24,329 bases of DNA, from positions 1 to 24,329 of the IMG/VR virus record IMGVR_UViG_3300023175_001558. One strand, given 5' to 3'. This DNA comes from a virus. The notes under the pieces are model-generated. The model ran no database searches. It saw only the letters and a list, made by a program, of their open reading frames with translations, and was not told the DNA's origin. Position numbers and translations under genes: made by a program. This document shows, piece by piece, positions 8-21,015 of this stretch (its first letter is position 1; each line of letters opens with the position of its first letter).

Positions 8-1555
8 TTAGCTTGCTGAGTATGGATTAGTGCCAGTAAAAGGAGTTTTAAGATATAAGTTAGCCGCACCTTGCAATGCACGGAAATTATTATAATCAGT
101 TGCTGCGGTGCCAGTTGTGGGATCGTATAGTCTATTAGACTCACTTACTTCTTGTAGCCAGCGTAAACACTGTTCTTGAGTATAGTGCGGTCTTGCTTCT
201 AACAAACACGCTAGTATACCAGCAACTTGTGGAGATGCCATACTAGTTCCGCTAATTTTTGTAATATCCCAACTATTATTATCAGGGTGTGGTGCAGTGC
301 CATTAGCCAATGCTATTGTACTACCTGTTGCAATACTACTCATAATAGGGCCGCCAGGTGCACTGATATCAACACGTGGTCCTTTTTCACTACTATTAAA
401 CAGTGGTTCTTGTCCACTTACGTAAACATAACTAATATTGCCTACACTGATAACACCTGGTTGTGCCATGGGTGTTGAACCACGATGATAATATGTAGTA
501 CCATATACACTGCTAGTCCAATAGTTATTGTAGTCTTGTCCTCCAGGAACATCACATTTATGACTACCATTCCCAGCCGCCGCTACCATGATAATACCAT
601 CATCCAAACAGTCTTGAATATCAGCATCGACACTGGCAATACGAATCGGATGTGTATAAATGCCTTCGCTCTGTTGTCCTTGAATCATACCATATTGTGA
701 CTGCATTAGCGTGTCAGTCCATGGCGTGCCTCTCCAATTACCACCAGTAATATTTTCATAATTAGCAAAATATCCCCAACTCATATTAACAATAGTTGGA
801 CGAATAGGAACACTGTCATTTTGTGGATTAGCAGTCTTTTTACTGTTGTGCCACGCTCTAAGCATGTTAAAACTTGCACTGGCACCAAATGTATTGCCTG
901 GGTCATCTAAGATTTTTAAACTGTATATGTTGGCATTACGAGCCCAACCAAAACGTCTACCTACTGCAATACCTGCAACGTGTGTACCGTGACCATCTAT
1001 ATCTCTGTGATACTGTGCTGGCTGAGTATATGTTCCACTAAGTCCACTAATACTTGGCCAATCAACAGTTTGATATCGTACTGTTGTCCCGTCAGCATCA
1101 CTAATAAATTCTGGGTGATCTGGTTGAATACCACTGTCTTGAATTACTACATCAATGTCTTGACCACTTAGTGTATATGGAAAATTATAAGGAACAGTTC
1201 CACTTACGCCGCCATATGGATCAGCACCACTGGTACAACTTAACAGTCCCCAGTTACCTTGGTCAGGTGCCAGTGTGCTTCCTTTTTCATAAGCTCTTGT
1301 AGTTTCATCTAAACTTGCATTGACGAGATGATAGCCGTTTTCTATTTTACTACCATAACGTACATCTACAATACGTGGGTCGTTTCGCAATTCAGCTGCC
1401 TGCTCACGTGTCATAACAAAGTCAAAGTTACGTTTACTGCCAGGCTTTTCGTCATGTAATTCATATCCAGCATCCATCATCTGGTTTACAAATTCTTCTG
1501 TATCTACACCTTTATGTAGAGTAACTACTGCTCTGTTCTGATCTTCAGTACTCAT
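8..1555 (-). CDS. Subtilisin-like (S8) serine protease, 515 aa
   Basis: This is a serine peptidase of the subtilase family with a complete catalytic set. Asp140 lies in VVIQDSG, His189 in DGHGTHVAG, the oxyanion Asn329 in AAAGNG, and the nucleophile Ser438 in SGTSMASPQVAG. Residues 1-75 resemble an inhibitor I9-like propeptide (alpha/beta, with an FVMTREQAAELRNDPRIVDV segment). There is no signal peptide or membrane segment, so it probably works inside the cell or on the virion. The ATG is preceded by AAGGA at good spacing, and the gene starts 9 bases after the stop of the 719-aa fibre gene, so the two are probably co-transcribed. It is clearly paralogous to the N-terminal half of the 1021-aa protease (shared DVVIQD, PTIVN-SWGY and NWGL segments) but lacks that protein's C-terminal beta domains. 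The substrate is unknown; processing or modification of tail fibres, or attack on host surface protein, are guesses. Confidence 0.93.
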   Translation of the reverse strand: MSTEDQNRAVVTLHKGVDTEEFVNQMMDAGYELHDEKPGSKRNFDFVMTREQAAELRNDPRIVDVRYGSKIENGYHLVNASLDETTRAYEKGSTLAPDQGNWGLLSCTSGADPYGGVSGTVPYNFPYTLSGQDIDVVIQDSGIQPDHPEFISDADGTTVRYQTVDWPSISGLSGTYTQPAQYHRDIDGHGTHVAGIAVGRRFGWARNANIYSLKILDDPGNTFGASASFNMLRAWHNSKKTANPQNDSVPIRPTIVNMSWGYFANYENITGGNWRGTPWTDTLMQSQYGMIQGQQSEGIYTHPIRIASVDADIQDCLDDGIIMVAAAGNGSHKCDVPGGQDYNNYWTSSVYGTTYYHRGSTPMAQPGVISVGNISYVYVSGQEPLFNSSEKGPRVDISAPGGPIMSSIATGSTIALANGTAPHPDNNSWDITKISGTSMASPQVAGILACLLEARPHYTQEQCLRWLQEVSESNRLYDPTTGTAATDYNNFRALQGAANLYLKTPFTGTNPYSAS

Positions 1556-1564
1556 AAATTATCC

Positions 1565-3724
1565 TTAAACAATATTAATCAAACCGTTCATTGCACTGTG
1601 ATATTGACATACATAGTACAGTGTATTTGGTGCATCCATTTGTACTGTCCATTCAATAACACCGCTTTCTGTACCACCATTTGTCAAATTGTCAGTATAC
1701 AGGTTTGAGGCATTGTATGCACCACTCGATGTCTGAATATGGAAAGGATGTCCTGGGGTATTGATATTAAATTTATATGTAAATCCACGATATAGGTATA
1801 ATGTTGGATTGTCGTCACCATCAGTACCAGCACCAGTATATTGGTAACGTCCTGCGTCAGGTGCTGTTACACTAAATGTTGGAACACCAGTAGCAATGTT
1901 TGACACCTGTGTGTCTACATAATTCTTAGTAGCTGCATCCTGTAAATCAACTGGATCTAATACATTTGTAATTTTACTGCTATTTGCATTAATGTCGCCA
2001 ACAGCAATTAAACTGATATCACTTGCACTTTCCAGTGTAGCAAATCCAAGTCCTGTACTGTCTAAACTTGTTACTGTAAGTGTATTGTTGATTGTAACAG
2101 CATCGTTAGTGACAGCACCACGTGCAGTTACGTCACTAAGTGTGTCTGTGCTACTTCCAATATCACTAGTAAGTGCTACTGTACCGCTGGCATCTGGGAA
2201 TGTAATAGTTCTGTCAGCTGTGGGGTCAGTGACATTAATAGTAGTTTCAAATGCATCGTCTGTAGCACCTTCAAACTGTATACTGTTAAGTCCTGTAATG
2301 TCTGCATCTAAACTTAGTGAAATAAAGTTAGTTGCGACTTCAGCATTAATTTGTCCAGTAGTTCCTAGGAATGTAAGTGTCTCAGTTGATGTATCAAATG
2401 TATGGGTACCAATGTTACCAGCAATACCAAATGTACCGCCACCACCAGCATCAGTATCGTTAATCCAACTACTGCCGTTATACTTTAGTACTTGTCCAGT
2501 TGTTGCTGAACTAATGCTAACATCTCCCAAGTCATTAATACTAGCATTGCTTATATTAGAACCTGTAATTGTTGCTGTTGGTGTTTCTCCATATACTATA
2601 ATTGTAAATGGTGAAAAGTTACTTGGCGTACGGCCTCCACTATTATCATAAAACTCTGCCGTAAATCCAGTTGTTGATTTATTACTAATACCAACATGGT
2701 AATCATCAAATGTTTCACTGTCAGTTACAACTGTATATTGTGTATTTGCTTGCGCATTATCAAAAGTAAAATCTAATGATGAGTTTCCACTATTCCAGTT
2801 ACTCCAGCTAATACCAGTAGCGGAACCGTTAGACGTAGTTTCTACATTTGCAAATGCAAATGGTGCAATAACTGTGTCAGTACCACCAGCACTTGTCTGG
2901 TCCGCAACCCAAGCATAGTCACTTCCGTTCCAGCTTAAAATTTGGTTTGCAGTTGCGCTACTTGTATTAAGATGTGTATCTACGTCACTGTCAGTATAAC
3001 TTGTGCCGCTAGTAACTGTTGTGAAACTAAAATTACCTGAACCGTCTGTTGTTAATACTTGACCGTTAGTACCATCACTGATACTTAGATCTGTTAATGC
3101 ACTGGGGATTGTTGGTTTATTTGTAAGACTATTGTAGTCACCATCAAATGCATTACTAGTTAATTGATATCCACTTAAATCTGGGGGAGTGTATGTAAAG
3201 TGTCCACTGGTACTGTTGTATGCTAAATTTGCAGTACCTGCTGCGGCAACAGTAACACTCAAGTCTGTAAGCTCAATACCGCCACCGCCAGCGCCGCCAT
3301 CAGCTGCTGGTACCCAGTTAGTACCATCGTATTTTAGTATTTGTCCTGTAGTAGCAGGTGTTGATAAATCAACATCATTTAAATCACCAATATTAACTGG
3401 TACACTGCTATCATCAGCAAGTTTAATCCAACTACCAGCATGTGCATAGTATGCAGCGCCTTCATTATGAACGTGTGCAAACATGCCGTGATAACTACTT
3501 GCTGCTGGCAAGTCAACTAAATCTTGGTATAAAAATGTAATACGGTTGCTACCAGTTACATCCATTTTACCAGTTGCACTGTTTACTAGTGTAAGTGGGG
3601 TGTCGCCACCCAGTGCATTGTATAACTCTAAAAAGTTATCATTATTTTTATCTAATGCATCTCTTAACGGATCACCAGTGCCATCATTTGCCACTGCACC
3701 AATATTTACTAACTGTCTAGACAT
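1565..3724 (-). CDS. Tail-fibre-like structural protein with C-terminal cupredoxin-like domain, 719 aa
   Basis: The composition (Gly/Ser/Thr/Asn/Asp), repeated beta segments and phage-fibre phrases identify a fibre or appendage protein; examples are LTDLSISDGTNGQVLTTDG (211-229), a DPTADRTITFPDASGT stretch in the middle, and DAATKNYVDTQV near the C-terminal part. Residues 1-125 match the N-terminus of the 317-aa protein downstream of uvsE, including a His-rich YHGMFAHVH...GAAYYAHAG block at 78-97. Residues 208-280 are also shared with that paralog. The last ~105 residues form a cupredoxin-like domain: His659 (GHPFH), Cys706, His709 and Met712 (YYVCQYHSAMNG) match the type-1 copper ligand order. 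The RBS is AGGGGA upstream of the ATG, with a CATAAATA late box 22 bases before the start. It is followed by the 515-aa protease. The exact virion location is not known. Confidence 0.88.
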   Translation of the reverse strand: MSRQLVNIGAVANDGTGDPLRDALDKNNDNFLELYNALGGDTPLTLVNSATGKMDVTGSNRITFLYQDLVDLPAASSYHGMFAHVHNEGAAYYAHAGSWIKLADDSSVPVNIGDLNDVDLSTPATTGQILKYDGTNWVPAADGGAGGGGIELTDLSVTVAAAGTANLAYNSTSGHFTYTPPDLSGYQLTSNAFDGDYNSLTNKPTIPSALTDLSISDGTNGQVLTTDGSGNFSFTTVTSGTSYTDSDVDTHLNTSSATANQILSWNGSDYAWVADQTSAGGTDTVIAPFAFANVETTSNGSATGISWSNWNSGNSSLDFTFDNAQANTQYTVVTDSETFDDYHVGISNKSTTGFTAEFYDNSGGRTPSNFSPFTIIVYGETPTATITGSNISNASINDLGDVSISSATTGQVLKYNGSSWINDTDAGGGGTFGIAGNIGTHTFDTSTETLTFLGTTGQINAEVATNFISLSLDADITGLNSIQFEGATDDAFETTINVTDPTADRTITFPDASGTVALTSDIGSSTDTLSDVTARGAVTNDAVTINNTLTVTSLDSTGLGFATLESASDISLIAVGDINANSSKITNVLDPVDLQDAATKNYVDTQVSNIATGVPTFSVTAPDAGRYQYTGAGTDGDDNPTLYLYRGFTYKFNINTPGHPFHIQTSSGAYNASNLYTDNLTNGGTESGVIEWTVQMDAPNTLYYVCQYHSAMNGLINIV

Positions 3725-3746
3725 AGAAAAATCCCCTGTATGTCAT

Positions 3747-3754
3747 TATTTATG
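3747..3754 (-). promoter_or_regulatory. T4-type late promoter box (CATAAATA) for the 719-aa fibre gene
   Basis: CATAAATA on the minus strand, 22 bases upstream of the ATG. It shares its surroundings (CCCCTGTAT, TTATTTATGCTA read on the plus strand) with the region upstream of the paralogous 317-aa fibre gene, so gene and promoter appear to have been duplicated together. Confidence 0.65.
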
Positions 3755-3759
3755 CTAGA

Positions 3760-6700
3760 TTAAGGATTGTCAACTATGGTAATAACTGCCCGGCCAATGT
3801 TAGTTGCAAGATATGATTCTTTATAAAATAAAATTTGTATTGTTTCAGGACCTTCAGTATTAGAGTCAGTTGCTATACCGCCCCCTATTACATATTCATC
3901 ATTACTATTTCTACCAATAGTTCCTGAATTTTGTAATCCAAAAAAGTCTGAATTTAAAACAGCATTACCTGATAAAGTATAATAAATTTGACTGGGGAGA
4001 TTGTAAACATAACTAGGTGTTAAAGTAACTGTAAAACTTGAGCCTTCATAAAAAGGATTTTCATATAACTCAGGATTAGGATCAACTGGTTGAGTTCCAG
4101 TTACAGCAACATTATATTCAACTGGAGGTCTGTCGTAAATTTTAACCTGTATTTCACCTTTAAGGTTTGCACTCGTAGTCACTGGACTATCATATAATCT
4201 CAAGTAAAAGAATTCAGGTGCTTCAGTCTGTGCATCGTTGAATATATACATTGATGCTCCTGCATATCCTATAGTTCCTACAGTAAATTCTTGCTGGCCT
4301 AATGGCTGGTAGTCAGATCCTTCATAAGCAGACCCAGAAGTTTGTGTAATCCAAACTGGTGTGCCAGGAGGTGCAAGGGTAATATCTTCTGGAGTAGCTT
4401 TTATAACTACTGCTGTTTGTTCATAAACAGAGCCTGGGCCGCCTTCATCAAAAGCGTTTTCAGGCTCAATTTCAAAAGTCCAATTAATACTCGGTCTATC
4501 TTCTAATACATGTACTGTCCTGTAAAGCTGAGTTACATTGCCGTCGCCATCTCTTTCTTCAAATATTATTTCAAATGTCTTAGGACTTTCAGAAACATAG
4601 TCAGCCACAAACCCAAAATTTATTTCAATTTCTTCACCAGCTGATACGCTGTATGGTATTCCGCTTTGGTAATTTGCAAAGGCGTAGAAGTCAGAGTTGT
4701 TTATGTTTCCGTCCATCCTAACATAAAATGTATATGTGTCATTGGTAGGTATATACCCGTTTCCTCGCACTGCATAACTTAATGATTCACCTTCATAAAT
4801 TACGTCTCCGTCTCTAGATGGATTGTTTAAATCTGGTGTTATTATGATTCCTGGTGTTCTATTTGATGTGTCTTCTATTGTTATTAATGCAGTATCACCT
4901 GAATCAATCCTAAACAATAAACGTTCAGTACCTTCAGTGAGTTCATCATTTGTTACTGTTATAGTTAGTGTAGATTCCCAGATATTATCAGAATTTAATG
5001 AAAACGTCATATTACCAGTTAGTGGAACATCTACATCGTCTTGTGTTATTCCATCACCTAAAATTTCATATGAAACAGTACGTTTTGATTCTGGTAAATC
5101 TTGCCTTGCCTGTACTGTTATTGTTGTTGTTGGGCTTTCAACTTCGTCCACAGTGAAACTAGAAACTACAAAACCGTATCCGTATTCTTCTTTTGTGTCA
5201 TTTAGTTTTGTGGTGTATTTTTCACTAAATGGATTAATTAAAAACTTTTTAGCCATTCCTTGGAATGATGAATCGTCGAAATAGTTTGGATCAGATGTAT
5301 TATCCCTATCTTCTGTTTCAACCTGATATTTATTTACACTAGCAAACTCTAATAACCATTTTTTACACTGTGCACTAGTAGCTGTAGGATTTATTTGCAA
5401 GTATAGTGCTAATATACCAGTAACTTGCGGTGCTGCCATACTTGTGCCAGTAATACATAAATTATTGTACGCATTATTACCAAAATAACTAGCCGAAAAA
5501 GTTCTGTTTGGGTCAAGTGCAAGCATATCAGCATTGTTTGTTGCCGCCCAAATCCTAGTCCCTGGTGCTGCAATATCATTTGCTGGGCCACGTACAGAAC
5601 TTCTTGTCAATACTTCTCCGAGACTAGCGCCAAAAACATTTATGCCAGTATTTGAGTAATTAGCAACAGAAATACCATCAGCTGACCATGGTGAACCAGG
5701 TCTATTATAATAAATTGGATCACCAGCTGGTATATCAATCCAGTCGCCACTAGAAGTGTAATGATTGTCATAATCAATACCTCCAGGCAGGTCATGTTTA
5801 TAACCTGAATTTCCACCTGCATTGACAAATACAACACCAGCATCTATCATATCTTGACATGCTTCGTTAACTGCTATATTTGATGCTTCATGTCTAACAG
5901 AAGGACCAAATCCAAGAGATCTATAATTTGATCCATTTAGAGAAGTTGTACCTGTACTTGTTCCTCTGAATACAACGTCAGTTAAAGAATTGCTGTCTAT
6001 ATAACCTGGAACATACCAACCGTACCCCCAACTTGCGTTAACGATAGTTGGTCGTTTATATCCAGTATTAGGATCAATAGGTTTTTGTTCATGCCACAAT
6101 CTAATTAAATTAAAGCAGTCGATTGTACCAATCCCGCCTGCTGAATCAAAACGTATACTATATATACGTGCATTTTTAGCATAACCGTGTCTTTTTCCTG
6201 CTGCAATACTTGCAACATGTGTTCCGTGATACCCTACGTCACCATAATGAGATGATGACATTGCACCACTACTACCAGTTTCTGCATACCAATCGATTTC
6301 CATAAGTCTAGTATTACCGTCAGCATCTTCCCATTCAGGGTGTCCGGTCATAACACCATTATCTTGAATTACAACGTCTACACCTGTGCCATCAAGTGCA
6401 TAAGGATATTTGACACCAGTGCTAATATCATACACTCTCAACGGATCAAATATGTCAGTTTCGCCTTCTATATAGGCTAGTGGGTCTTTTCTAGAAGTAC
6501 TAAACAGCCCCCAGTTTGTAAAATATCCATCTAATACACTTGTGCCATTCCTCCAAAATATATCACGCTGTTCAGCAAATATATCATATGTGTTAAATGT
6601 AAAGACTTCGACTGCCTTAACATCTTTATGACTTCTTAATAATGATGCTTCTTCTTGAGTTAGGAAAAATTCTGTTGATTTTAAACTTAATTCCATTGGG

Positions 6701-6825
6701 TTAGATATTGACACTGCTCTAGTAGGTATTAAGTTATCAGTGTCTGTGGTGTTATCAGTTCTAATAGTGTTTAAAAAATCTTCTACAACATCGACATTAG
6801 CTAGTGTTACTATGTATCTATTCAT
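3760..6825 (-). CDS. Subtilisin-like (S8) protease with C-terminal Calx-beta-like domains, 1021 aa
   Basis: The N-terminal half is a complete subtilase: Asp155 (VVIQDNG), His200 (GYHGTHVAS), oxyanion Asn339 (NAGGNSG) and Ser462 (TGTSMAAPQVTG). Residues 1-75 are a propeptide-like region resembling that of the 515-aa protease (FFLTQEEASLLRSHKDVKAV). From about residue 550 to the end there are about four all-beta modules of 100-125 residues. Each closes with an acidic strand of the type VxIxDxP (ITIEDTS ~657, VHVLEDRPS ~785, VKIYDRPP ~905, VITIVDNP at the C-terminus) and contains EGxE or EGPE-like segments, as in Calx-beta repeats. No signal peptide is seen. The ATG has an AGGAAA ribosome site and begins 13 bases after the 317-aa fibre gene. 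The beta modules suggest anchoring to a virion or to a surface; this is inference. Confidence 0.9.
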   Translation of the reverse strand: MNRYIVTLANVDVVEDFLNTIRTDNTTDTDNLIPTRAVSISNPMELSLKSTEFFLTQEEASLLRSHKDVKAVEVFTFNTYDIFAEQRDIFWRNGTSVLDGYFTNWGLFSTSRKDPLAYIEGETDIFDPLRVYDISTGVKYPYALDGTGVDVVIQDNGVMTGHPEWEDADGNTRLMEIDWYAETGSSGAMSSSHYGDVGYHGTHVASIAAGKRHGYAKNARIYSIRFDSAGGIGTIDCFNLIRLWHEQKPIDPNTGYKRPTIVNASWGYGWYVPGYIDSNSLTDVVFRGTSTGTTSLNGSNYRSLGFGPSVRHEASNIAVNEACQDMIDAGVVFVNAGGNSGYKHDLPGGIDYDNHYTSSGDWIDIPAGDPIYYNRPGSPWSADGISVANYSNTGINVFGASLGEVLTRSSVRGPANDIAAPGTRIWAATNNADMLALDPNRTFSASYFGNNAYNNLCITGTSMAAPQVTGILALYLQINPTATSAQCKKWLLEFASVNKYQVETEDRDNTSDPNYFDDSSFQGMAKKFLINPFSEKYTTKLNDTKEEYGYGFVVSSFTVDEVESPTTTITVQARQDLPESKRTVSYEILGDGITQDDVDVPLTGNMTFSLNSDNIWESTLTITVTNDELTEGTERLLFRIDSGDTALITIEDTSNRTPGIIITPDLNNPSRDGDVIYEGESLSYAVRGNGYIPTNDTYTFYVRMDGNINNSDFYAFANYQSGIPYSVSAGEEIEINFGFVADYVSESPKTFEIIFEERDGDGNVTQLYRTVHVLEDRPSINWTFEIEPENAFDEGGPGSVYEQTAVVIKATPEDITLAPPGTPVWITQTSGSAYEGSDYQPLGQQEFTVGTIGYAGASMYIFNDAQTEAPEFFYLRLYDSPVTTSANLKGEIQVKIYDRPPVEYNVAVTGTQPVDPNPELYENPFYEGSSFTVTLTPSYVYNLPSQIYYTLSGNAVLNSDFFGLQNSGTIGRNSNDEYVIGGGIATDSNTEGPETIQILFYKESYLATNIGRAVITIVDNP

Positions 6826-6838
6826 TATGTTTCCTATC

Positions 6839-7792
6839 TTAATGCAAGTCTACCCAAACACCATTTGCATATCCCTGGAATTTGTTTGTATCAGTATTAT
6901 AAACTGTGTCTCCATTTAGTGCAGTTAAAGCATCACGTTGTGCAGTTGTAAAGTTAGCAACTCTAAAAGGAGTAGTATTTCCTACCGCAACACGATTTGT
7001 TGCATTTAAGTTAATATCAGTGGTACTATTAATATCTGTTAAACCAGTACCAGTAATATATAAACTATCAACTGTTAATGTATTAAACGTAACATCATCT
7101 GTAGTATCAAGTGATTGGTTATATGATGTCCCGCCACTGCCTGTTTGATCAGTTACCCATGCATAATCACTACCATCCCAACTTAGAAGTTGATTTGTTC
7201 CTGCTGTACTTGTATTAAGGTGTGTATCAACATCACTGTTAGTATAGCTAGTACCACTTGTTACAGTTGTAAATGAAAAGTTACCAGCACCGTCAGTTGT
7301 TAAAACTTGTCCGTTTGTACCATCACTAATACCTAGATCAGTTAATGCACTGGGGCCTGTATCATTGGCAGGTTCCCAAGCACTGTTTGCACTGCTCCAT
7401 TTTAACACCTGTCCATTTGTCGGGGCTGTTGTTGTAGTATCTACATCAACTAAATCACCAATATTAATATTACTTAGATCACTTTTATTTGCTAATTCAA
7501 CCCAATTACCTGCATGAGCAAAATAGGCAGCACCTTGTGTGTGTACATGCGCAAACATGCCGTGGTAACTGCTAGCTGCTGGTAAATCTAGTGTATCATT
7601 GAATAAAAATGTAATCTTGTTTGATCCAGTAAGATCAAGTTCACCGTTATTGATAATAGTAGTTAATGTGTCACCACCTAACGCAGTATAAACTTCAATA
7701 AAGTTATCATTTAATTTATCTAATGCTGAACGTATTGGTTCACCAGTGCCGTCATTTGCTACTGTGCCAATATTTACGAATTGTCTTGACAT
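6839..7792 (-). CDS. Tail-fibre-like structural protein, 317 aa, paralog of the 719-aa fibre
   Basis: The N-terminal ~125 residues align with the 719-aa protein (MSRQFVNIGTVANDGTGEP, and the His-rich YHGMFAHVH...AYFAHAG block at 76-94). Residues 148-220 repeat the shared LTDLGISDGTNGQVLTTDG...SDVDTHLNTS...LSWDGSDYAWV module. The C-terminus (GDTVYNTDTNKFQGYANGVW) is a small domain common at the ends of phage fibre proteins and replaces the cupredoxin end of the paralog. RBS GGGGA lies upstream of the ATG and a late box sits 23 bases before it. An inverted repeat at 7802-7833 can mask this RBS on read-through transcripts. It is followed after 13 bases by the 1021-aa protease. Likely an appendage component; assembly position unknown. 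Confidence 0.88.
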   Translation of the reverse strand: MSRQFVNIGTVANDGTGEPIRSALDKLNDNFIEVYTALGGDTLTTIINNGELDLTGSNKITFLFNDTLDLPAASSYHGMFAHVHTQGAAYFAHAGNWVELANKSDLSNINIGDLVDVDTTTTAPTNGQVLKWSSANSAWEPANDTGPSALTDLGISDGTNGQVLTTDGAGNFSFTTVTSGTSYTNSDVDTHLNTSTAGTNQLLSWDGSDYAWVTDQTGSGGTSYNQSLDTTDDVTFNTLTVDSLYITGTGLTDINSTTDINLNATNRVAVGNTTPFRVANFTTAQRDALTALNGDTVYNTDTNKFQGYANGVWVDLH

Positions 7793-7801
7793 AAAATAAT
7801 C

Positions 7802-7833
7802 CCCTGTATTACACTTATTTATGCTATACAGGG
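7802..7833 (-). promoter_or_regulatory. Inverted repeat enclosing a late promoter; predicted RBS-masking hairpin
   Basis: Perfect 8-base arms, CCCTGTAT at 7802-7809 and ATACAGGG at 7826-7833, are separated by 16 bases that contain the CATAAATA box. On a minus-strand transcript coming through from uvsE, the 3' arm carries the AGGGGA ribosome site of the 317-aa fibre gene and would be base-paired. A transcript starting at the late box (start expected near 7810) lacks the 5' arm, so the site is free. Genes such as e, soc and 49 of T4 are regulated this way. Confidence 0.65.
7816..7823 (-). promoter_or_regulatory. T4-type late promoter box (CATAAATA) for the 317-aa fibre gene
   Basis: CATAAATA on the minus strand, 23 bases upstream of the ATG, lying in the loop of the inverted repeat at 7802-7833. 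Confidence 0.7.
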
Positions 7834-7838
7834 AGGTT

Positions 7839-8903
7839 TTATGCTGCTTTTAGTATACCAGTAAATGGATCTTTTTGCATATAATACTGTTGATAAAGTT
7901 GTGTACTGGCTAAGTTCTTCATTTTAGCCTCTACCATAATATCAAATTTATCCCAAAAACTCAAGGCCCACTCATTGCTTGCAGTATTCCAGCAATAGTC
8001 TGAATGTGCTCTTAGTTTTTGTTTTTTGTATGAGGATTCAAGTAGTGTGTCCATGTCTGGTCGTACACTTGATGAAGCATCCTTGATATAGTCCTCACGG
8101 CTAAGGCTGTAATGCATAGTAGGACGCACACCACGCCAACTATCGATAATAATACTAATGCGCTCGTCGTCATGTCGAATATATTCTCCTGTCTTGACCC
8201 AGTGATGATGTATGTCCATCACCAAGGGTACATCTTTACTTAGCTCTAGGCTTGCTTCGAGTCCCCAGGAGTTTTCGTCGTTTTCGATAGTGATAGTGTT
8301 TCGTGCTTCTGTAGACAATCTTGGAAGGATGTCTTGGATACCGGCTGGACCTTTTTTACCTGAGATGTGGACGTTACACTTGAAGTCTTGCCAGTTCTGA
8401 CCGTAGCCCATCCACCTGATGATATCCGCATGATATTCAAACTCCTCTAATGAACGTTCGACCACATCCGGATTATCGGAAGCAAGAACGGTAAACTGAC
8501 CAGGGTGCATAGACAAGCGTACATCAAGCTCACGTGCAATATCGCCAACTTTCGAGTACGCTCGCTCGAGCCGTGTTCGGAGATCTGCTTGCCTATAGAA
8601 ATAAGCCCAATCACCATGAGTATAAGCAGGCAACAAATTACTGCCAATACGTACCATGCGTAATGATTCTGGTAAAGATCCAACATATCTAATTAGCCTT
8701 TCTAAATTTGCCACGTTGTCAAAAGCAATTTCATAAAGTCTTTGCTCTGCTACTTCACGTGACTGTCTGTTAAGCCATGTAATAGTTGTAGATCTTTCAG
8801 TATACTGTGACTGAATTTCTTTAAGTATTTTAGGCTTTTGTGTTTGGTCCGGGTGCATGTATTTACATGCGAACCCGATACGTTTTATGCTACTATTAAA
8901 CAT
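7839..8903 (-). CDS. uvsE: UV-damage endonuclease (UVDE/UvsE family), 354 aa
   Basis: UVDE nicks DNA 5' to UV photoproducts and starts alternative excision repair. It is a TIM-barrel metal enzyme related to endonuclease IV. The family signature residues are present in order: the N-terminal IGFACKYMHP, SMHPGQF (His133, Gln136), NVHISGKKG (His179), ITIENDE (Glu207), MDIHHHW (Asp230, His232), MHYS (His264), AHSDY (His300) and a C-terminal DIMVEAKMKNLA (Lys327). The chosen start is the ATG at 8903, which overlaps the stop region of the 74-aa gene (ATG-TTTAA), because the family N-terminus (RIGFACKY) begins right after it. A longer reading upstream would run through the 74-aa gene in another frame and adds nothing family-like. 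Translation is probably coupled to the 74-aa gene, since no strong ribosome site is seen. It probably protects phage DNA in sunlit water. Confidence 0.95.
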   Translation of the reverse strand: MFNSSIKRIGFACKYMHPDQTQKPKILKEIQSQYTERSTTITWLNRQSREVAEQRLYEIAFDNVANLERLIRYVGSLPESLRMVRIGSNLLPAYTHGDWAYFYRQADLRTRLERAYSKVGDIARELDVRLSMHPGQFTVLASDNPDVVERSLEEFEYHADIIRWMGYGQNWQDFKCNVHISGKKGPAGIQDILPRLSTEARNTITIENDENSWGLEASLELSKDVPLVMDIHHHWVKTGEYIRHDDERISIIIDSWRGVRPTMHYSLSREDYIKDASSSVRPDMDTLLESSYKKQKLRAHSDYCWNTASNEWALSFWDKFDIMVEAKMKNLASTQLYQQYYMQKDPFTGILKAA

Positions 8904-9120
8904 ATTGTTGTAATAACTCTGTTGTTTGTTTTGCAGTAAAGGTATGCTTAAACTTGCTAGGGAAGTTTGCACGGATTGCTTGCTGTTGTTTACGTGTATA
9001 AGGTACAGCAATAAACGCATCTGAGCCGTATACTTGTTGTGCAAGTTGGTACTGCGATGCACTAATTTTTTGTGCAAAGTTAAAAATAGTTAAGCCGGGT
9101 TCTGTTACTAGATAGCTCAT
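8896..9120 (-). CDS. Small conserved-type protein of unknown function, 74 aa
   Basis: A soluble protein I do not recognise, rich in Gln and Ala (AQKISASQYQLAQQVYGSD, TRKQQQAIRANFPSKF), with predicted helices and no membrane segment. It is supported as a gene by a strong ribosome site (AAGGAGA) 7 bases before the ATG, a near-consensus promoter just upstream (9147-9175), and end-to-start overlap with uvsE. Its place as first gene of an early-type unit with uvsE suggests early expression; a role in repair is only a guess from position. Confidence 0.8.
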   Translation of the reverse strand: MSYLVTEPGLTIFNFAQKISASQYQLAQQVYGSDAFIAVPYTRKQQQAIRANFPSKFKHTFTAKQTTELLQQYV

Positions 9121-17242: not shown

Positions 17243-18019
17243 ATCTGAATCTATTTCGTCCTGAGTTACTACTTCTAGCTCTTCCAGTGTCTTGTAGGGA
17301 GTCATGAGTTTAATTTGTAAATAATCAGTTTCATCTTTAAGATAAATTGTTACTCTATGCCAATCATAAAGCCGCCGCCAACCACTGGTTAATTGTCTAG
17401 ATATGTAACTTGCATATCGAGTCCTGCTGGTAGTGCCAGTAATATTGGCAGCAATCCTAAAATTATCACTCAGCCTATAACTATCTTCGTCCAGTGTTTT
17501 TAATATATCATATATGTGTTCAGCACCACCATCTACAATTTCAGTACTGCCAGGCCATATTATTTTATAACGATATTTTTTATAAAATAAATTATCTCTA
17601 ACCAAAATTTTACAATTGTTTTTCATTGTGTCACGCTGTACTTCGTTTGCAGGGCCGTGTACATCAATCAAAAACAATCTAAATCTTTTAATTAGCTTGA
17701 TTGCAATATCAGTATCGTTTAAGTAGACGTGAAATTTACTTTCACGCCTAAGTCTATAATCAATTTTATTACTATCCAAAAACTGTGTAATCTTTTTATG
17801 AACATTGCGAAGTTTGTTCATATCCTCACGGCGGTCTTCATTATTGGTTATAGAATAACCACCACCATGTCTAAATCCAAATAATGTCCATAACTGAATG
17901 TTATCAAATCCTAATCGCAATGAATAAGTTTTGAAAAATAGTTTTTCTGTATAAACATACGTGCACACATCACTGCATGCTTTTCTAACATCAGATATAG
18001 TTGATTTGGATTTGGTCAT
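17237..18019 (-). CDS. Basic protein of unknown function, 260 aa
   Basis: A strongly basic protein (many Lys, Arg, Tyr; for example FHVYLNDTDIAIKLIKRFRL, KNNCKILVRDNLFYKKYRYK, YASYISRQLTSGWRRLYDWH) with an acidic C-terminal tail. There is no membrane segment and no motif I recognise. The start is taken at the ATG at 18019 ([11 protein letters not shown]). The frame stays open further upstream, but that part lies inside clpA and looks like out-of-frame coding. It overlaps the last 29 bases of the ClpA gene, so it is co-translated with it. The charge would suit binding to nucleic acid, but that is not demonstrated. Confidence 0.8.
   Translation of the reverse strand: MTKSKSTISDVRKACSDVCTYVYTEKLFFKTYSLRLGFDNIQLWTLFGFRHGGGYSITNNEDRREDMNKLRNVHKKITQFLDSNKIDYRLRRESKFHVYLNDTDIAIKLIKRFRLFLIDVHGPANEVQRDTMKNNCKILVRDNLFYKKYRYKIIWPGSTEIVDGGAEHIYDILKTLDEDSYRLSDNFRIAANITGTTSRTRYASYISRQLTSGWRRLYDWHRVTIYLKDETDYLQIKLMTPYKTLEELEVVTQDEIDSDK
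17238..17245 (-). promoter_or_regulatory. T4-type late promoter box (GATAAATA) for the 54- and 134-aa genes
   Basis: GATAAATA on the minus strand, 27 bases before the ATG at 17210, overlapping the stop of the preceding gene and the palindrome at 17225-17242. Confidence 0.62.
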
Positions 18020-20216
18020 TTTGAATATCAATCTCAATTCTATTGTGTGTTGAATCACTAAACAACAGTTTACGTGCCAGTGGCTTTTTAATATTCTCAT
18101 TAATTTCACGAGCCATTGGTCTTGCACCCATTGTCTCATTAAATCCACGATCGCTTAACCAATTGGTAACTGCTGGTGTCCATGTAAGATCAATTTCACG
18201 ATCTTTAACCATGTACTTTAGTTCAGTCATAAACTTGTCAGTAACTTGATTAATGTGCCCACGGTCAAGTTTATTAAACTTAACAATAGCATCTAAACGG
18301 TTACGGAATTCAGGACTAAAGAAACTTTTAACTGCTTTGTCTTGTGCACCGTCATGTTTTCCGCCACCAAAGCCAATAACATTCTTTTCACTGTCTGCCG
18401 CACCTAAGTTACTGGTCAAGATAACAACTGCGTTACGTGCACTTACACTTTTACCATCACTACTGGTAACCATACCGTTGTCCATTACTTGTAACATAAC
18501 GTTCAATACATCAGGGTGTGCCTTTTCAACTTCATCCAATAGCAATACACAATTTGGTGTTTTTTCCAATTCGTTAATCAATTGTCCACTACCAGTTTTA
18601 CCATCACCATGTCCTACATAGCCTGGAGGTGCGCCAATCAACTTAGCAACTGTATGACGTTCTTGATACTCACTCATATCAAAGCGTACCAAGTTCATGT
18701 TTAACAACTCACTAATTGCTTTTGCTGTTTCAGTTTTACCAACACCTGTTGGTCCAGTAAACAAATATGTACCTACTGGCTTGTCTTTAGATTTAAGTCC
18801 TGCTTTACTGATGTATACAGCGTCTGCCAATAAGTCAATTGCTTGGTCCTGTCCAAACACACGCTCACGTAGTTTTTCTTCAATGTTAATCATTTGTGTT
18901 TCACGGCGCTTAACATTAACAACTGTGTCCAGTGGAATACGTGCCATTTTACTGATCTCATATTTGATAAGTTCATCAGTAATAGTAATAATACGCTCTT
19001 CTGGTTTACGTGTACGTTGACGAGCAAATGCACTATCAATAACATCAAATGCCTTGTCTGGCAGTTTCTTGTCATGCAAGTATTGTACACTTAAATCAAC
19101 TGCGGCATTGATTGCTTCTGGTGTAATTTGCATCTCATGGTAAATTTCATAAGCACTTACACTCTGCTTGACAATTTCTTTTGCTTCACTTGGTGTTGGT
19201 TCAGGAACATCAATCTTATAAAAACGGCGAGCTAGTGCACGGTCTTTCTCAAACTTTTCACGATATTCTTCATATGTTGTACTACCAATACAGCGTAGTC
19301 GACCTTTTTGCAGTGCTGGCTTTAACAAGTTAGCAACATCCATTGCGCCTTGTCCAGCATTACCTGCACCCATAATCATATGGATTTCATCAATAAACAG
19401 GATAGCATCATCACGTTTATCCAGTACATCCAGGATCTCTTTCATACGCTCTTCAAAATCACCACGGTACTTTGTGCCTGCCAATAGTGCACCAATATCC
19501 AAACTATAAACTGTATGTGATGCAATAGTGTCAGGTACATCTTCATGTACAATACGGTATGCCAGACCTTCTGCAATAGCAGTTTTACCTACACCAGCAT
19601 CGCCTACTAGTACAACATTGTTCTTTTTACGGCGGGCAAGTGTTTGTACTAATTGATCTACTTCTTGCTCTCTGCCAATTAACTTGTCTAGTTTGTGCTT
19701 TTTTGCTTCTTGATTTAAATTAACTGTGTATTTTCGCAGAACTTGGTCGCCAGTATTGCTACCTTGTTTTGCCATTTGTTCGTATTCTTTTTCCAATGCG
19801 CTTAAATATTCTAAAATAATTTCTCTAGTTACACCATTCATTTCGCAGATAAACACTGCTTGGCTATTCTTTTCTGCTAGTACACTCAACAACAAGTCAA
19901 TTGGATTAAGTGTCTGTCTGCCATGAAATAATGCCTGTGTAATTGCACGATTAAAAACTCGTTCCAGTGTAGTAGTCTTTCTTGGACGTAAACCGTCCTC
20001 GTCTACTTTAATACTGTCAAGCTCAGTTGCAACATATGCGTGAGCATGGTCAAGAATATCAATAGGGTTGCCATCAATCTCTTTTACTAATTCAATAATA
20101 TCATCATCTTCAAATAACACACATAAAATGTGCTCTAGGGTAACATATTCATGAGCATGCATCTCAGCAATTTTAAATGCTTTAGATACCATTAACTCAA
20201 TGTGTTCATTTGCCAT
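17991..20216 (-). CDS. clpA: ClpA-type AAA+ unfoldase, 741 aa
   Basis: ClpA unfolds proteins and feeds them to the ClpP peptidase. All parts are present: a Clp N-domain (1-145, double repeat [10 protein letters not shown] / [10 protein letters not shown]); first AAA+ module with Walker A GDAGVGKT (205-212), pore loop GTKYRG (Tyr250) and Walker B LFIDE (273-277); second module with Walker A GPTGVGKT (488-495), pore loop GYVG (Tyr533), Walker B LLLDE (558-562) and sensor-2 GARP (697-700). No ClpB-type middle coiled coil is present. An IGF tripeptide at 614-616, at the position of the E. coli ClpA IGL loop, implies docking to ClpP. Length is close to E. coli ClpA (758 aa). RBS AGAGG before the ATG; 13 bases after dnaJ. 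No clpP is seen in this window, so it would use the host's or one elsewhere in the phage genome. Confidence 0.95.
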
Positions 20217-20229
20217 TAAATTTTTCCTC

Positions 20230-21015
20230 TTATAGGTCTTTTATTTTTGTATCAGGATCCGTGCTAGCAGGAATACTCACATTGATCTGTATAATAAGAT
20301 CGCCTGTTTTACGTGTTCCATATATTGGGAAGCCAGCTTCTGGGATTCTTAACTTTGTTCCTGGCTGTGTACCTGGTTTTATTTTAACACTATATTTCTT
20401 TTTGTCAATACCTGACACTTCAATAGTATTACCAAGTATTGCATCTTTTACGAATATAGTTTCTTTAACTAAACAGTTGTTGTCTATGCGTGTGTATATA
20501 GGGTGCTTTTGCTCTAAAACAGTAACATATAAGTCGCCTGGAGGAAGTTGTTGATTTGTATCATCACCACATCTACTAAACTTAATTTTACTTCCGTTTG
20601 GTACCCCTGCAGGTATCTGAATATTCACTGTTTTTGTTTTGCTTCTGCTAATGTGTATTGTTATGTCTTTATTTACACCAGAAAGTAATTCTTCTAGCGA
20701 AATATTATACGTAATTGTAATATCCTTGTTCTTAGGTTGTCTAAAATTAAAATTGAATTGATTATCAAACTGACTGAATATATCATTCATATTCATATCA
20801 TTGAATGGATTACCGCCTGACTGTTGTGGCTGCTCAAAACTTTGTCTACTATCCTTGTCTTTTATCTGATCATATGCAGCATTTACTTGCTTAAACTTAT
20901 CCTGATCACCGCCGCGGTCTGGATGGTGTTGTTTAGCTAATTTACGATATGCTTGCTTAATTTCTTCGTCACTGGAGTTACGATTAACACCCAGGACACG
21001 ATAAGGATCAGTCAT
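20230..21015 (-). CDS. dnaJ: DnaJ/CbpA-type (class II J-domain) co-chaperone, 261 aa
   Basis: A J-domain at residues 3-62 has the essential HPD (31-33, in KQHHPDRGGD) that stimulates Hsp70 ATPase. A Gly/Phe/Asn/Gln-rich linker follows (about 64-95, with NQFNFNFRQP). Two C-terminal client-binding beta domains come next, including IQIPAGVPNGSKIKFSRCGD and VKIKPGTQPGTKLRIPEAGF. The Cys-rich zinc-finger region of class I DnaJ is missing, so it is a CbpA/DnaJ class II protein. It overlaps the o-spanin stop by 8 bases and precedes clpA by 13 bases. With ClpA it forms a phage-encoded protein-quality set; it would work with the host DnaK, since no hsp70 is in this window. Confidence 0.95.
   Translation of the reverse strand: MTDPYRVLGVNRNSSDEEIKQAYRKLAKQHHPDRGGDQDKFKQVNAAYDQIKDKDSRQSFEQPQQSGGNPFNDMNMNDIFSQFDNQFNFNFRQPKNKDITITYNISLEELLSGVNKDITIHISRSKTKTVNIQIPAGVPNGSKIKFSRCGDDTNQQLPPGDLYVTVLEQKHPIYTRIDNNCLVKETIFVKDAILGNTIEVSGIDKKKYSVKIKPGTQPGTKLRIPEAGFPIYGTRKTGDLIIQINVSIPASTDPDTKIKDL

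Follow-up and report, generated by a model that had tools for sequence, protein, structure and literature searches.

The IMG/VR virus record IMGVR_UViG_3300023175_001558, analysed over a stretch of 24,329 bases (hereafter the window), carries four genes of interest at its left end, all on the minus strand. They form two tandem units, and in each a late-promoter-like box is followed by a fibre-like gene and then by a gene for a subtilisin-like protease (subtilase): fibA with protA (317 and 1021 amino acids) and fibB with protB (719 and 515 amino acids). This anatomy had been given in a preliminary description, and all four open reading frames lie at the positions claimed there, on the minus strand (Table 1). 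The spacing between fibre and protease is 13 nucleotides (nt) in fibA-protA and 9 nt in fibB-protB, and neither protA nor protB has a late box of its own. Both pairs were found again on at least four more IMG/VR contigs, assembled from separate metagenomes (L003, L004, L005 and L008); the tandem arrangement is therefore no assembly artefact.

Table 1. Positions of the two fibre-subtilase units and their parts in the window.
Feature	Position	Strand	Remarks
late-promoter-like box CATAAATA before fibA	7816..7823	-	leader kept before fibB and in the syntenic contig L221
fibA, fibre-like protein, 317 aa	6839..7792	-	N-terminal anchor and small 'NKFQGYANGVWVDLH' C-terminal cap
fibA N-terminal anchor, residues 1-102	7487..7792	-	72% amino acid identity to fibB 1-105; 68-69% to L220/L221
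fibA internal module, residues 147-222	7127..7354	-	85.5% amino acid and 79% DNA identity to fibB 207-282; 82% to L006
protA, subtilase, 1021 aa	3760..6825	-	catalytic region residues 146-513; C-terminal extension of ~480 aa
protA Calx-beta-like segment, residues 550-642	4900..5178	-	Pfam E ~1e-4 to 2e-4; 21.5 bits, cut-off 27
late-promoter-like box CATAAATA before fibB	3747..3754	-	
fibB, fibre-like protein, 719 aa	1565..3724	-	
fibB N-terminal anchor, residues 1-105	3410..3724	-	likeness to fibA anchor
fibB internal module, residues 207-282	2879..3106	-	likeness to fibA module
fibB C-terminal cupredoxin cap, residues 608-719	1568..1903	-	His-Cys-His-Met copper ligands; profile, fold
protB, subtilase, 515 aa	8..1555	-	
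protB propeptide-like domain, residues 6-68	1352..1540	-	beta-alpha-beta-beta-alpha-beta; model matches pro-subtilisin 3whi over its length
protB catalytic residues	D140 1136-1138; H189 989-991; N329 569-571; S438 242-244	-	

The two proteases score 109.5 and 92.2 bits against Peptidase_S8 (Pfam cut-off 21.8) and match phrog_9158 over the subtilase region at 4e-79 and, for protA, 9e-66. They are 33% identical to each other across the propeptide and catalytic segments (E 5e-66), in agreement with the earlier claim that these segments are common to both, and their DNA shows no significant similarity. Viral scans yielded at least 583 relatives, from which 87 clusters at 80% identity were examined. 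The D/H/N/S catalytic set is intact in protA and protB; of the 85 clusters covering all four positions, 84 retain it, the exception being L020, with Arg for His. A comparison of protB with its 90% identical relative in L006 gave an omega of 0.09, indicating purifying selection. Judged by their sequences, protA and protB look like working enzymes, with activity predicted. The first C-terminal segment of protA weakly resembles a Calx-beta module, under the Pfam cut-off, and the other segments described earlier as Calx-beta do not.

A structural model of protB (predicted local distance difference test, pLDDT, 87.9) shows a proteinase-K-like catalytic domain (proteinase K TMt ~0.8). Its N-terminal domain, with a linker of low model confidence behind it (residues 77-81), resembles unprocessed pro-subtilisin in the model, yet has no Pfam I9 match. 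The likeness to secreted proteinase K and pro-subtilisin thus extends to the catalytic residues of both proteases and, in the protB model, to the predicted fold and a propeptide-like domain; unlike these enzymes, protA and protB are late phage genes with a larger catalytic region and a fibre partner. Neither has a strong N-terminal hydrophobic stretch or an obvious signal peptide, which makes secretion by the Sec route unlikely. Two other identities were rejected. The tail sheath 'subtilisin-like domain' (PF04984) is absent from the Pfam matches of both proteases, which, together with their intact catalytic residues, argues that they are not a structural sheath domain. Similarly, a prohead protease of the T4 gp21 type does not fit, as protA and protB match only S8-type families; cyanophage S-SCSM1, which has a homologue of these subtilases, carries a separate prohead protease gene (SSCSM1_40). 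Among the relatives of protB, one (L009:1365-2911) is broken into two overlapping frames, by sequencing error or a recent frameshift, and another (L017:7995-10481) has an insertion of ~300 residues in the catalytic region.

Both fibre-like proteins match phrog_677 (baseplate wedge tail fibre connector), at 9e-28 for fibA and 3e-58 for fibB. Against the Pfam profile T4_gp9_10_N (cut-off 25), fibB scores 25.4 bits and fibA 24.4 bits, slightly below the threshold. The first ~50 residues of the fibre anchors resemble the N-terminus of the T4 gp9/gp10 connector (PF07880); the anchors cover only the first third of this profile, and the remainder is unrelated. The common N-termini and internal module of the two fibres, noted previously, were recovered at 72% (residues 1-102) and 85.5% amino acid identity, the module spanning ~76 residues and the alignment across both parts giving 54% identity. 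No S74 match (Pfam) was found in fibA or fibB and the protease sits in a separate gene, so a Peptidase S74 or endosialidase-type chaperone on the fibre was discarded.

The similarity between the units extends upstream. The leader sequences GCATAAATAAGTGTAATACAGGGGATTATTTTATG and GCATAAATAATGACATACAGGGGATTTTTCTATG are nearly identical between units, and leader plus fibre N-terminal anchor are 73% identical in DNA. The reported likeness of promoter and leader holds, a CATAAATA box lying before each fibre. The box motif itself is not enriched: TATAAATA with one mismatch occurs 68 times in the window against 64 expected. What backs the late box is thus its position and the conservation of the leader in L221.

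Genomic neighborhood analysis across the protease clusters revealed a strict arrangement. The upstream gene is on the same strand in all 84 clusters that have one and lies at -60 to +40 nt in 80 of them (median 6 nt), while the downstream gene is placed more loosely (same strand in 72 of 79, median 21 nt). Single scans of 20 upstream genes gave a match to a 'tail'-category PHROG for 13; over all 82 upstream genes, the commonest families are tail-fibre or fibre-connector. Several upstream genes without a tail match end in an NKFQGYANG-type cap, which is found on fibA too. In the named cyanophages examined, a fibre-like or unassigned gene occupies the upstream spot, amid other tail genes. In the reverse direction, a subtilase comes next for only 14 of the 73 genes that have an anchor or segment resembling fibA and a readable next gene. 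The pairing rule holds for the protease family but does not extend to the fibre family. Obligate pairing, raised in the preliminary description, is accordingly borne out from the protease side and rejected from the fibre side, where 59 of the 73 VNIG-type fibres have no subtilase next. Likewise, the proposal that each protease works with its fibre keeps one half: the protease is tied to a same-strand upstream gene, typically of tail-fibre families, but is not obligate for the fibre.

Other arrangements occur within the family. A second phage contig carries two tandem fibre-protease pairs (L057:867-6265; 287 + 894 and 396 + 538 amino acids), the proteases of which fall in different clades. On three further contigs, two tandem subtilases lie behind a single fibre (L064:3906-7509, L067:3804-7524 and L075:4156-7590); in L064 and L067 the first subtilase is very divergent, and its catalytic residues still align. 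A scan of genome contigs returned mainly ordinary cellular subtilases at ~25% identity.

The last 112 residues of fibB had been described as a cupredoxin cap, and profile, fold and copper ligands all back this assignment. The segment has profile similarity to plastocyanin and was modelled as a cupredoxin fold (pLDDT 90.6) that superimposes on rusticyanin with Z 11.3 and a root-mean-square deviation of 2.3 over 102 residues. All four ligands (His, Cys, His and Met) are invariant in 20 of 20 copies of the cap. By its modelled fold and its ligands, the cap is a type 1 copper cupredoxin with predicted copper binding; it differs from rusticyanin and plastocyanin in being fused as a cap to a tail fibre or a protease. 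By cluster, the cupredoxin is at the fibre end in 8, on the protease in 12 and on both in 0, counts too few for the mutual exclusion to be telling. Its occurrence on either partner indicates that fibre and protease take surface domains from a common pool, and this exchange suggests a shared place of action. Cyanophage gp9-like connectors likewise match the C-terminal end of fibB, and a domain with a plastocyanin/rusticyanin-type copper site caps the C-termini of many fibres and proteases at other loci.

To place the two units in the history of the family, phylogenetic trees of the proteases were used. A 29-row tree groups protA with L037 and L040 (100/100) and protB with L006, L010 and L054 (100/97), and an 85-row tree agrees with this grouping. 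A tree constrained to unite protA and protB (with L006) is worse by 118 log-likelihood units (approximately unbiased test on the 29 rows, p-AU 3e-101), which rules out the simple joint duplication of fibre and protease that had been proposed for the module. Identical gene order and the similar leaders and anchors of the two units would suit a co-duplication of the whole module within the phage, but this is scarcely credible: the proteases are not sisters, their DNA is unlike whereas the fibre DNA is 73-79% identical, and each has closer relatives in other phages. The repeated part is the leader and anchor, with separately acquired payloads behind. The second copy of leader and anchor may stem from a duplication with later replacement, or a complete foreign unit may have been inserted.

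Two contigs document the exchange. L221 is syntenic with the window (UvsE 69%, flanking gene 63%, downstream gene 72%, leader shared) and has a single pair. Its fibre has an anchor of 68-69% identity and ends in a cupredoxin cap that shares 81% identity with the fibB cap, and its protease is of a third lineage, 34-37% identical to protA and protB. L006 is from an apparently unrelated phage, sharing neither the leader nor the tested flanking genes within the available stretch. Its protease is 90% identical to protB, with a synonymous divergence (dS) of 0.75, and its fibre is 84% identical to fibB over residues 431-607 (dS 0.71), with a quite different N-terminus; the synonymous divergence of the two parts thus matches. 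Together, these contigs indicate that the distal fibre part and the protease can move jointly and that caps and proteases are also re-paired, while the resident leader and anchor stay. Strict co-travel of fibre C-terminus and protease is true for L006 and fails for L220/L221, because there the cap is 81% identical yet the protease belongs to another clade.

Evidence for presence in the virion comes from S-SCSM1, in which 45 virion proteins were reported from mass spectrometry (PMC9602691). For S-CREM1, the main text of the paper gives no list of virion proteins. The GenBank record marks 48 genes as 'virion protein', among them the subtilase homologue SSCSM1_228 (QFG06492.1) and the upstream SSCSM1_227. 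The mark is borne by non-structural proteins that the paper reports as detected (NMNAT, QFG06477.1 and a D-Ala-D-Ala carboxypeptidase; PMC9602691), and several classical structural genes are without it. From record and paper, the marks therefore appear to track the mass spectrometry experiment rather than similarity annotation, and the main-text passages found on the subject (PMC9602691) do not name the subtilase. Virion presence is thus supported for a single, distant homologue, that of S-SCSM1.

Building on the observed anatomy, intact catalytic residues, family-wide pairing and cassette exchange, we favour, if only just, a virion-borne protease that is positioned by its fibre and acts on a host surface protein. 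Each unit would form a tail cassette on the receptor side, in which the N-terminal anchor would dock the fibre to the baseplate or tail, and the distal fibre part with the subtilase behind it would be an exchangeable payload. Fibre and protease would be co-transcribed from a single late promoter. The protease would fold as a propeptide-bearing zymogen and then mature itself, as its modelled architecture suggests, and it would ride on the virion beside its fibre. There it would most likely cut a host-surface protein, as sugar-cutting tailspikes cut polysaccharide, and the window phage would bear two payloads, each preceded by its own copy of a common leader and anchor. Tailspike and tail-fibre depolymerases offer a functional parallel, with an enzyme payload that is likewise exchangeable, follows a conserved anchor on the virion and probably acts at the host surface; the difference is that the enzyme is encoded here by a separate gene and is a protease instead of a glycan lyase or hydrolase.

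Several observations weigh against this interpretation. On the protease tree, some fibre classes descend jointly with certain protease classes, a pattern expected of a maturation partner. The S-SCSM1 homologue has just ~30% identity, its 816-residue C-terminal extension could be the part detected, and the 48 marks in the record exceed the 45 proteins of the paper (PMC9602691). Furthermore, a protease that processes the fibre and remains bound afterwards would likewise be present in the virion.

The strongest rival is that the subtilase acts during assembly, cutting the fibre next to it or some other tail protein. This would account for the tight coupling and strict fibre-to-protease order, for the lack of a secretion signal, for the joint movement of the fibre C-terminal part and protB seen with L006, and for the clustering of both fibre C-cap and N-class on the protease tree (permutation p < 0.005). 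We nevertheless regard it as rather unlikely. The near-same cap (81%) and anchor precede distant proteases (34-37%) in L221 and the window phage, one protease type sits behind fibres with unrelated N-termini, and most fibres with a fibA-like anchor have no protease. Such re-pairing weakens fibre maturation, and the swapping of cassettes favours host-surface cutting over it; the late promoter and the missing signal peptide fit both.

An exoprotease freed at lysis or loosely carried, stripping receptors from debris or neighbouring cells in the manner of influenza neuraminidase, would agree with late expression, the general subtilase fold and the long surface-type C-terminal extensions of some proteases, but it is improbable, as it leaves the fixed position behind the fibre gene and the S-SCSM1 virion mark unexplained. 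Other phage proteases degrade host proteins during takeover, and the absence of an obvious signal peptide would allow such an intracellular role, to which we give slightly less credence still in view of the late promoter common to the fibre gene, the putatively propeptide-controlled fold and the surface domains common to fibres.

Most of the enzymes known from phage tails act on sugars or on the cell wall. A virion-borne subtilase cutting host surface protein would, if correct, be the protein-directed counterpart of the sugar-cutting tail enzymes, present in at least 87 sequence clusters, mostly of aquatic phages. It would yield a testable prediction of hosts shielded by protein layers and offer self-activating proteases with natural targeting fibres. 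The fibre-protease pair is a swappable unit in many ocean bacterial viruses, and the data suggest that the window phage tail carries protein-cutting tools; they also suggest a candidate function for many 'hypothetical' genes adjoining cyanophage tail fibres. The wider idea, of widespread proteolytic tail tools in which mobile distal fibre and subtilase cassettes on a common anchor breach or strip protein surfaces and can be stacked two per genome, is plausible yet falls somewhat short of probable.

The protease family is already in databases, as 'subtilisin-like serine protease' or 'hypothetical protein'. Cyanophage genes under the former name or in PHROG 9158 (S-H38, S-WAM2, S-H9-1, P-SSM2 PSSM2_297 and S-RSM4 039) belong to the same family and follow a fibre-like gene, and some of them end in a cupredoxin; they differ in having one pair per inspected locus, at ~30-36% identity, and are mostly unnamed or without an assigned role. 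An S8 peptidase common to P-HM1 and P-HM2 has been named in a comparison of cyanophages, with no role given (Sullivan 2010, PMC3037559). A search confined to the open-access literature (subscription papers and preprints lying outside it) found no paper on the fibre-protease pairing, on the exchange of cassettes or on a cupredoxin cap common to both partners, and the 'subtilisin' papers on cyanophages and methylophages found there deal with the 'subtilisin-like domain' of the tail sheath instead of with proteases. The new aspect relative to known tail-associated enzymes is that the enzyme is a protease and is in a separate, fibre-linked gene.

Elsewhere in the window, the frame of a UvdE-type UV endonuclease (7839-9077) overlaps a short open reading frame with an ATG at 9120, leaving the true start of the endonuclease uncertain. 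A ClpA/B-like ATPase (phrog_4871, 5e-249) at 17991-20216, beside which no ClpP-like gene was noticed within the window, adjoins a DnaJ gene (20230-21015).

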